A stretch of 41,062 nt of DNA, from positions 1 to 41,062 of the forward strand of contig JAILSC010000004.1 of assembly GCA_024697865.1 (NCBI GenBank). The letters are read 5' to 3'. Positions 37,527 through 39,492 of this stretch are shown piece after piece (position 1 is the stretch's first letter; the number at the start of each line of letters is the position of its first letter). Source of the stretch: Candidatus Saccharimonadota bacterium. GTDB lineage: Bacteria; Patescibacteriota; Saccharimonadia; Saccharimonadales; Saccharimonadaceae. Under the pieces are notes generated by a model, which did not search any database, had not been told where the DNA came from, and saw only the letters and a program-made list of their open reading frames with translations. The position numbers were made by a program, and so were the translations under genes.

Positions 37527-38147
37527 TTACTCCTTTCCCTCCAAACTTACGATTCCTTTGCGTGGACCAGGCACTGCGCCTTTAAGTCCGATCAAATTTT
37601 TCTCCGCGTCAACATAGGCAACTACCAAATTCTTTACGGTCACCTGCTCATGACCCATTCGACCTGGCATTTTCTTGCCTTTCCAAACTTTCTGCGGATA
37701 CATCGAACCGATCGACCCAACTCGTCGGATATTCCCCTTAAATCCGTGCGTGTTGCGTGATTCGATAAAATTGTGTCGCTTCACCGTACCAGCAAAACCT
37801 TTACCTTTGCTTGTACCAGTTACCGCAACTTTGTCCCCAATTTTGAAACTTTCGACATTAATAGTGTCGCCCAGCTTCATTCCTTCTGGAATTTCTTCAA
37901 CGCGAAATTCTTTTAGGATCTTAGGACTATTGTTTTCGCCAGCCTTTTTTGCATGACCAGCGACCGACTTGCTCAGATTCTTACCCTGACCGTAGCCCAT
38001 TTGCACAGCATTATAACCATCGGATTCGATAGTCTTTATCTGAGTCACTGTGCACGGACCGGCTTGAAGGATAGTTACAGGAGTAACTACACCGTCATCA
38101 CCGATGATCTGGGTCATACCAATTTTGGTGCCGAGAATGACTTGCAT
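37527..38147 (-). CDS. rplC: 50S ribosomal protein uL3
   Basis: First gene of the cluster, 206 residues. MQVILGTKIGMTQIIGDDGVVTPVTILQAGPCTVTQIKT starts it, and the core has KGFAGTVKRHNFIESRNTHG, GSIGSMYPQKVWKGKKMPGRMG and VAYVDAEKNLIGLKGAVPGPRKG. GAAAGGAATAGG precedes the ATG. rpsJ, normally just upstream, is absent. A 235-nt leader and a strong promoter lie ahead of it instead. Confidence 0.97.
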   Translation of the reverse strand: MQVILGTKIGMTQIIGDDGVVTPVTILQAGPCTVTQIKTIESDGYNAVQMGYGQGKNLSKSVAGHAKKAGENNSPKILKEFRVEEIPEGMKLGDTINVESFKIGDKVAVTGTSKGKGFAGTVKRHNFIESRNTHGFKGNIRRVGSIGSMYPQKVWKGKKMPGRMGHEQVTVKNLVVAYVDAEKNLIGLKGAVPGPRKGIVSLEGKE

Positions 38148-38178
38148 CCTATTCCTTTCGTTTAATATTATTTTTTAA

Positions 38179-38205
38179 GTTTTGCCCCTGTACACCGGGC
38201 AAAAC
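38179..38205 (-). promoter_or_regulatory. Leader hairpin A with GGUGUACAG loop
   Basis: Minus-strand RNA: stem GUUUUGCCC/GGGCAAAAC (9 bp), loop GGUGUACAG. It is closest to the rplC start. Confidence 0.7.
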
Positions 38206-38242
38206 ATATTCTTTGCCTACCTCTAGTAAGCATTTCCAGGGT

Positions 38243-38269
38243 GTTTTACCTCTGTACACCAAGTAAAAC
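38243..38269 (-). promoter_or_regulatory. Leader hairpin B with identical loop
   Basis: Minus-strand RNA: stem GUUUUACUU/AGGUAAAAC (9 bp with one G-U), loop GGUGUACAG. Stem changes relative to hairpin A preserve pairing. Confidence 0.7.
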
Positions 38270-38284
38270 TACCTCTGTTTTTCG

Positions 38285-38309
38285 GACTTCACCCTCCACA
38301 GGTAAAATC
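38285..38309 (-). promoter_or_regulatory. Leader hairpin C
   Basis: Minus-strand RNA: GAUUUUACC pairs with GGUGAAGUC (9 bp with G-U pairs) around a 7-nt loop UGUGGAG. It is similar in size to hairpins A and B but with a different loop. Confidence 0.5.
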
Positions 38310-38388
38310 GCACTATTAAAACTAGACGTTTAGGCTGGTTTCCCTATTTTGGTTGGGACCTTACCTTCTGTCTAGATATAACTCTTCC

Positions 38389-38417
38389 ATTATATCACAC
38401 AATGCATCCCTTGACAA
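38389..38417 (-). promoter_or_regulatory. Promoter of the S10-type ribosomal cluster
   Basis: Minus strand TTGTCA (38412-38417), 17-nt spacer, TATAAT (38389-38394) with a TGA extension. It is a strong sigma-70-type promoter, divergent from the one at 38501-38529. Confidence 0.85.
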
Positions 38418-38500
38418 CCCCTATTTTATTATTTTTCTAGAATCTTCAAAGAACACATCATAGTTGCAGGATAATCCCGCGAAACTTCGAGGAGCCAAAC

Positions 38501-38607: not shown

Positions 38608-39492
38608 ATGGCAGTTCGGAGAATCGATACAATTTCTGATCTCCACGAATTAGACCTCAAACCTAGCACGATGAAAGCCCTCGAGAAGGTCGACATTGAC
38701 GTTAAAGAGCTTGTCTTAAAAGCCAGGAACGATGCAATTTTGCAGAATTACTGGGTCAACCGGTCTTATAAGCCCGAAGCCGAGCAACTATCGACCTGCC
38801 CTGGCGTCGGCAAAGTTCGCGCCGTCGAGATTATCGCAGCGGTCGATCGGGCCGGTTTCATTTTGCACGAGAGCTCGCAATCTCGTAATGCTAGGAGGTT
38901 GGTTGCAGCCGTATTTAACAGCCCTAGGATTTTTATTGACAACTACGAAATCCTAGAGAACATGTCTACAGAGGCCTTGACCGCGGTGGATCGAGCCATA
39001 GAGGAGGCTCTCAGTAGGCAAGAAGCACGGTTCATCAAGGCTTATTACGGCTTAGCCGTCTACGGGACTCAGACTTATGTCAAAGGAGGTGATGGCCAAA
39101 GACCGTCTAATTCGCACTTACGCAACAAGGCCTTAGCCAAGTTGCGCCGCCCAGATTATTTGGCTAAACTGGAGGTAGCAACTTGCTATTCTCACCAAGC
39201 CTTGATTAAAAAGGTGACCAGCTTACGCCTCGAGATTAAAGAACTCCAACAGGTAGTCGCCGTCTTGATCGACAACAATCCTTACTCGGGTTCCAAAATC
39301 GATCAAAACGGGTCCTTAGAGGAGTTGAATCTTACCGCGAGAACACTCAACCTCCTCAAACGTAATAATATCTTCACTGTAAAATCGTTACTTAGATATA
39401 CAGATGAAGAATTGCTTAGCCTTCGTGGTTTTGGTGATCAAGCCTTGCGAGAAATCCATGAAGTTCGAGCTCGTTTAATGTTCAAGATTTAA
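38608..39492 (+). CDS. Putative DNA-binding regulator: HhH, sigma-4-like and RpoA-CTD-like domains
   Basis: 294 residues. The C-terminus (about 236-291: SLEELNLTARTLNLLKRNNI, FTVKSLLRYTDEELLSLRGFG) closely matches the C-terminal domain of RNA polymerase alpha, which binds UP-element DNA and activators. An earlier helix-hairpin-helix lies at 61-75 (LSTCPGVGKVRAVEI). The middle (~121-188) has RQEARFIKAYYGL and RNKALAKLRRPDYLAKL, resembling sigma-70 region 4, though the recognition helix is not well preserved. The N-terminus (DLHELDLKPSTMKALEKVDI) may be another alpha-CTD-like unit. There is no catalytic motif. It is a single gene with its own promoter and terminator, divergent from the ribosomal cluster. 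I infer a transcription regulator; the targets are unknown. Confidence 0.75.
   Translation: MAVRRIDTISDLHELDLKPSTMKALEKVDIDVKELVLKARNDAILQNYWVNRSYKPEAEQLSTCPGVGKVRAVEIIAAVDRAGFILHESSQSRNARRLVAAVFNSPRIFIDNYEILENMSTEALTAVDRAIEEALSRQEARFIKAYYGLAVYGTQTYVKGGDGQRPSNSHLRNKALAKLRRPDYLAKLEVATCYSHQALIKKVTSLRLEIKELQQVVAVLIDNNPYSGSKIDQNGSLEELNLTARTLNLLKRNNIFTVKSLLRYTDEELLSLRGFGDQALREIHEVRARLMFKI

Follow-up and report, generated by a model that had tools for sequence, protein, structure and literature searches.

A conserved 5' element and clade-specific hairpins with palindromic loops in the rplC leader of Saccharibacteria: a candidate ribosomal-protein leader

The rplC locus

The window, that is, the whole stretch of 41,062 nucleotides analysed here, is contig 5 of the assembly of a 0.71-Mb genome whose nearest relatives are ruminant-gut records named Candidatus Saccharibacteria. 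It carries a ribosomal-protein cluster on the minus strand, the beginning of which comprises the following features:

38389..38417, minus strand: predicted promoter of the sigma-70 type, with TTGTCA at 38417-38412, a 17-nt spacer and a TG-extended TATAAT at 38394-38389
38153..38158, minus strand: Shine-Dalgarno-like AAAGGA ahead of the uL3 start, read from the sequence and conserved in relatives as AAAGGAAAGGA
37527..38147, minus strand: rplC (uL3), open reading frame, Pfam PF00297
36926..37525, minus strand: rplD (uL4), Pfam PF00573, E 9.6e-58

The promoter matches the consensus at 11 of 12 positions, and transcription of rplC is expected from its sequence to start near 38382. The leader is followed by rplC, rplD, rplW (assigned with Pfam) and then the remainder of an S10-spc-type cluster. 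As the uS10 gene is located on a different contig, rplC is the first gene of the cluster.

Two other features of the region were observed. The uL29 gene (rpmC) is missing between uL16 (end 33940) and uS17 (start 33938) on the minus strand; Ribosomal_L29 had no match in 12 genomes of the genus and was present in seven of eight other families of the order. In addition, a divergent plus-strand gene at 38608-39492 encodes a protein of 294 amino acids with a stand-alone RNA polymerase alpha C-terminal domain and a weak additional helix-hairpin-helix match, and its promoter (TTGACA/TAAAAT) faces that of rplC.

Fold of the leader

The leader in the window (about 235-239 nt) folds at -67.7 kcal/mol (z = -4.64), and none of 200 dinucleotide shuffles was equally stable. 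From its 5' end, it contains these structures:

38322..38375, minus strand: conserved 5' element, with helices P1 (CUAGAC/GUCUAG), P2 (AGG/CCU), P3 (GGU/ACC) and P4 with an AA bulge; z -3.9
38311..38321, minus strand: conserved UUUUAAUAGUG immediately 3' of P1, from the alignments
38285..38309, minus strand: hairpin H1, GAUUUUACC UGUGGAG GGUGAAGUC; z -4.1
38243..38269, minus strand: hairpin A, 9 bp, GUUUUACUU-GGUGUACAG-AGGUAAAAC; 44.5 bits with model R1
38214..38232, minus strand: intervening hairpin, UGCUUAC UAGAG GUAGGCA; z -3.5
38179..38205, minus strand: hairpin B, 9 bp, GUUUUGCCC-GGUGUACAG-GGGCAAAAC; 45.1 bits with model R1

A preliminary description of this DNA had reported two 27-nt hairpins with 9-bp stems and an identical loop, and hairpins A and B were found at exactly those positions on the minus strand. 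Their common loop has nine nucleotides, GG-UGUACA-G, which is two nucleotides, a 6-nt palindrome and one further nucleotide. The third hairpin (H1, 38309-38285) and the 5' stem of the same description are also real, the stem corresponding to P1. Two things had been missed: that this stem forms the outermost helix of the element that is most conserved in the leader, and the intervening hairpin at 38232-38214.

The accompanying hairpins have counterparts elsewhere. Those of the intervening hairpin include CGCUUAUAGGGCG and CCUGUUAUAGGCAGG in relatives, while counterparts of H1 with a GUGGAG-type loop recur in several multi-hairpin leaders. Hairpins like these two, with a loop that is GUGGAG in one and of the YUANAGG type in the other, accompany the double arrangement in leaders L036, L039, L040, L050, L132 and L134, and single-hairpin leaders often show a YUANAGG hairpin followed by GUGGAG. 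A long-range pairing of UUUUAAUA with UAUUAAA appeared in the fold of the window leader and was discarded on inspection, as it is not kept in relatives. No standard intrinsic terminator was found in the window leader by a scan limited to loops of 3-8 nt, in which P1 would not count.

A conserved 5' element at the head of the operon

Leaders were retrieved through uL3 from 80 loci in GTDB genomes, from 174 genomes of the same genus (151 with uL3) and from extra upstream stretches, giving 133 distinct leaders after removal of duplicates. The sequences are genome assemblies, mostly metagenomic, in which related species are counted repeatedly, and the E-values of the models built for this analysis are rough.

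The 5' element is found ahead of uL3 in 125 of the 133 distinct leaders, just past the promoter. Its layout is P1-P2-RGUC[P4]GAAACY-P2'-P1'-U-tract, with a CG pair between P3 and P4, and in the window the strands of P1 (38375-38370 and 38327-38322) are followed by UUUUAAU. In other families, P1 is followed by CAUUUUURUGU, i.e., a stem and a U-tract resembling a pause site or terminator, and the first eight nucleotides after P1 contain four to six U in 122 of 125 leaders of the genus.

Covariation of the element was assessed at three depths. Among 28 rows from the genus, 7 of 16 pairs were changed on both sides; double-sided changes affected 11 of 16 pairs in 49 rows and 12 of 16 pairs in 32 order-wide rows, levels reached by 0 of 500 shuffles. 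The paired share of cells was 94-95% in these two larger alignments and 94.5% in the order-wide one. Both were fitted to the model, which somewhat favours it, and the slid and shuffled controls are far lower: the order-wide covariation was 0.434, compared with 0.158 in shuffles and less than 0.1 when slid. Model-fitted alignments were used since aligning the complete element directly with MAFFT (A2) placed the variable joint incorrectly. The compensatory changes in P1 are visible by eye, as the helix reads CUAGAC/GUCUAG, CUUGGUG/CACCAAG, UUGGC/GCCAA or CAUGGU/GCCAUG.

A genome-wide search of the order with the element model gave matches within the genus, in further genera of its family and in one other family, always upstream of uL3, and direct reading of 20 other families revealed the element upstream of uL3 in most. 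At the level of the phylum, the search with model R3 was too narrow to show where the element is absent; uL3 leaders were therefore retrieved and scanned instead. The core of the element was present near uL3 in 9 of 60 such leaders, which range from the same family to elsewhere in the phylum (two of the nine from the same order); it occurred in 0.33% of shuffles and never on the opposite strand. The 5' element was not found in the rest of this phylum sample; in those genomes, the operon may begin with a gene other than that of uL3. One leader (L103, JAISOF010000002.1) labelled Candidatus Nomurabacteria carries a Saccharibacteria-type uL3 and leader element, and this label is probably wrong.

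Taken together, these comparisons indicate that the deeply conserved, ancient part of the leader is the 5' element and not the hairpins: the leader is defined by the P1-P4 structure rather than by tandem hairpins. The element at 38322..38375 is a candidate binding site for a ribosomal protein.

Distribution of the hairpins

A covariance model (R1) built from 47 distinct hairpin sequences detected the hairpin in 70 of the 174 genomes of the genus, as a single copy in 56 and as two copies in 14. All matches fall in the rplC leader, adjoining uL3 wherever uL3 is on the contig; no second locus that might provide a partner in trans was found in the 174 genomes, and a search of phage records gave no match. 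The recurrence of the hairpin upstream of uL3 in relatives goes beyond chance; the tandem form, in contrast, is confined to 14 of the 70 genomes and is not typical. The stems vary and keep pairing, as noticed earlier in the window: across relatives, 6 of 9 pairs show double-sided changes, and 98% of cells are paired. Model R1 scores 45 bits on the transcribed strand against 15-21 on the opposite strand, and the orientation to uL3 is constant.

A tree built from uL3 coding sequences places the hairpin-bearing leaders together in a single group (63 rows, with some losses), and the hairpins are a later insertion limited to one clade within the genus. They are positioned between the 5' element and the Shine-Dalgarno sequence, a gap of only 30-45 nt in hairpin-free leaders. 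The loss of one copy is tolerated, as exemplified by the second hairpin of L062 and the first of L040.

In leaders from different families (L265, L267, L269, L270, L272, L276, L281 and L258), the 3' strand of P4 is immediately preceded by the string AACAGRGG, which resembles UACAGRGG on the 3' side of the kissing-type hairpins. The latter may have arisen through copying of the P4 arm.

Palindromic loops

Perfect loop pairs in the hairpin alignment are partly due to the selection of rows; the unbiased count comes from a loop-blind scan that collected every stem of at least 8 bp with a 6-12-nt loop downstream of the 5' element. Among the 82 hairpins obtained, 71 have a 9-nt loop, and 70 of these 71 contain a 6-nt palindrome, which extends to the relatives the self-complementarity that the preliminary description had pointed out in the window. 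The common 9-nt loops are GUUGUACAG (n = 29), GGUGUACAG (n = 19) and GAUGUACAG (n = 14), and the rarer ones are GAUGAUCAG (n = 3), AGUGUACAA (n = 3) and GAUACGUAG (n = 2); a 10-nt loop, AACUGAUCAG, is present too. Positions 1 and 9 are purines (G or A) throughout, position 2 can be U (often) as well as G or A, and the loop as a whole is conserved more than the stem.

UGUACA accounts for 65 of the 70 palindromic 9-nt loops, and most of the loop conservation could therefore be for sequence. Where it is replaced, by UGAUCA or UACGUA, palindrome always gives way to palindrome. Only 5.9% of the alternative tetramers for the core GUAC are palindromic, and both replacement cores are. The two replacement loops lie in separate places of the uL3 tree, as do the occurrences of UGAUCA itself. 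The replacement evidence amounts to two hexamers and perhaps three or four events. The pairing strength of the bare hexamers is moderate (-4.3 to -5.0 kcal/mol vs -7.9 for HIV-1 GUGCAC). On balance, selection of the loop for self-complementarity is supported.

Partners of the loop and alternative explanations

The preliminary description proposed that the two loops of one leader kiss. Such a contact in cis would constitute a single-molecule switch like the tandem guanidine-II riboswitch, and it is in keeping with the identical palindromes in both loops of 10 of the 14 double leaders and with their regular loop-to-loop spacing of 60-66 nt. However, 56 of the 70 genomes have a single hairpin, and only 2 of 45 single-hairpin leaders have a second copy of the hexamer, searched for in the leader and in 500 nt of the coding sequence. 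Moreover, four double leaders (L003, L036, L037 and L134) have UGUACA in the loop of hairpin A and UGAUCA in that of hairpin B. Cross pairing of these two costs +1.4 kcal/mol as bare hexamers, while their homotypic pairing is intact, at -4.8 and -5.0 kcal/mol for the hexamers and -6.4 and -7.0 kcal/mol for the loops. As most leaders are single and the loops of these four are incompatible, a kiss in cis does not provide a general explanation, and we regard it as distinctly unlikely. Pairing in trans with a different RNA (a small RNA or another mRNA) appears very unlikely: any exposed UGUACA could pair with the 6-nt loop, and partners without the stem would escape model R1, but the hairpin occurs at no other locus of the 174 genomes and the self-complementarity would be left without a reason. 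Given that no other genomic locus was found, the simplest reading is that two copies of this mRNA make a homotypic contact, and the loop sequences favour it over a kiss in cis.

Readings that involve no contact between RNAs were also considered. A protein, either a ribosomal protein of the operon or another RNA-binding protein, may read the loop, with the palindrome as the recognised sequence. The dominance of UGUACAG, flanked by a G..G or A..A purine pair, agrees with this, as does the occurrence of the string ACAGRGG also in the P4 loop of the ancestral element, owing to which the hairpins might be copies of a protein site. Nevertheless, UACGUA alters four of six positions and UGAUCA two of six, and both are still palindromes, which a plain sequence motif would not need; we thus consider recognition of this kind unlikely. 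It is extremely unlikely that the hairpins are mere stability or spacer elements of the 5' UTR with no specific function of the loop, because conservation is higher in the loop than in the stem and the loop has 9 nt in 71 of the 82 strong hairpins, even though the copy number varies and the hairpin is absent from most of the genus. Finally, a hairpin with a palindromic loop also forms an inverted repeat in DNA, here just past the promoter, and might be the operator of a dimeric regulator instead of an RNA structure. In every 9-nt loop, the palindrome sits half a base away from the centre (2 + 6 + 1), the stems contain G-U pairs, and the strand preference and constant orientation noted above also speak against an operator, the probability of which we place close to negligible.

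A model of two layers

The homotypic contact between mRNA copies can be combined with the 5' element in a model of two layers, in which an old docking element for a ribosomal protein is joined by younger, mRNA-dimerising hairpins; we give this model an even chance of being correct. The first layer would be the old Patescibacteria element (P1-P4 and U-tract), which begins near the predicted transcription start and on which a ribosomal protein of the operon would most likely dock. By analogy, the best candidate is uL4, the ligand known for S10-type leaders, and uL3 would be the second because of its closeness. Binding would stabilise P1 and thereby promote a transcriptional pause or termination at the U-tract, keep ribosomes from entering, or both, the ribosome site being a few nucleotides from the 5' element in hairpin-free leaders. 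We infer that autoregulation of the rplC leader by one of these proteins is likely.

Mimicry of 23S rRNA was examined with models R1 (hairpin), R2 and R3 (element), and nothing beyond chance was found on the 23S of related genomes; without filters, model R3 gave only E 2 or worse. Local alignments of the 5' element to 23S were no better than shuffles after 17 tests, a comparison at the level of sequence that is compatible with structural mimicry. The proposed ligand is therefore unsupported by mimicry. A supposed resemblance of GAUACCGCCYAAAAG to a strand of helix 89 (H89) of 23S did not survive the shuffle-controlled comparison.

In the second layer, one or two inserted hairpins, with loops of two nucleotides, a 6-nt palindrome and one purine, would allow the mRNA to kiss a second copy of itself through the contacts A:A' and B:B'. 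In a cell about 0.3 micrometre across, a single molecule corresponds to roughly 0.1 micromolar, and two transcripts would suffice to form a kissing complex of normal affinity. Two transcripts would already amount to a high concentration in so small a cell, and dimerisation may sense the number of transcripts or lock the repressed leader; the dimers might repress, protect or localise the mRNA. The most far-reaching version of the model, which we hold only tentatively and rate as short of probable, is that a ribosomal-protein mRNA self-dimerises through loops like that of the HIV-1 dimerisation initiation site, DIS (in some species through two orthogonal palindromes, A:A' and B:B'), counting or pairing transcripts in the control of ribosomal proteins, atop an undescribed class of r-leader across a large part of Patescibacteria.

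How bacteria of the Candidate Phyla Radiation (CPR) balance ribosome synthesis is essentially unexplored, and a covarying leader of the rplC operon offers a direct handle, which extends to cultured oral Saccharibacteria if their leaders carry the 5' element. If true, an evolving palindromic kissing loop would be a rare case of programmed mRNA homodimerisation beyond viruses and a few eukaryotic mRNAs. As the palindromes interchange, dimerisation can be tested by simple loop swaps.

Comparison with known systems

The hairpins resemble the HIV-1 DIS in their stem-closed loop and in their interchangeable 6-nt palindromes flanked by unpaired nucleotides. The loop of the HIV-1 DIS has 9 nt (2 + 6 + 1). 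Its palindrome is flanked by conserved purines, and palindromes interchange with self-complementarity kept (PMC7357161). Unlike in the DIS, the palindromes here are less rich in G+C, the 5' flank is not always purine, the context is a bacterial mRNA leader and dimerisation is predicted. Retroviruses, oskar mRNA and others provide known examples of palindromic kissing loops (PMC7357161), and none was encountered in a ribosomal-protein leader in the literature searched. Tandem identical self-complementary loops in a bacterial 5' UTR are also found in the guanidine-II riboswitch (mini-ykkC; PMC7357161), where the loop is ACGR and the pair of hairpins obligate, whereas here the loop is RN-UGUACA-R and one hairpin is usual. 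The leader has no ACGR loops, no Rfam match to this riboswitch and no sign of a small-molecule pocket.

In the E. coli S10 leader, uL4 acts on termination with NusA and on translation (PMC10931766). Both leaders are structured and precede an operon with uL3, uL4, uL23 and uL2; both have a stem followed by a U-tract, and by analogy a joint control of termination and translation is plausible here. There is, on the other hand, no match in sequence or structure, the operon here begins with rplC, and its ligand is predicted. In the window, Rfam gave no match at gathering scores, and relaxing the threshold to E 5 for 38100-38450 yielded chance matches alone; the absence of any related Rfam family agrees with the earlier suggestion that the S10-type operon of this lineage has a distinct leader.

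Dozens of r-leader types, validated or predicted, are described in the main text of Eckert and Weinberg (2020, PMC7247131), which mentions none from a CPR lineage. No r-leader of CPR bacteria was encountered in the published main texts searched. The Archaeoglobi L4 r-leader, as presented in that main text, is a candidate r-leader upstream of rplC-rplD-rplW-rplB with covariation, as here; it is archaeal and the present leader belongs to Patescibacteria, a distinction drawn from the text (PMC7247131). As in r-leaders generally, the structure described here lies consistently in the 5' UTR of uL3 and has a covarying secondary structure.
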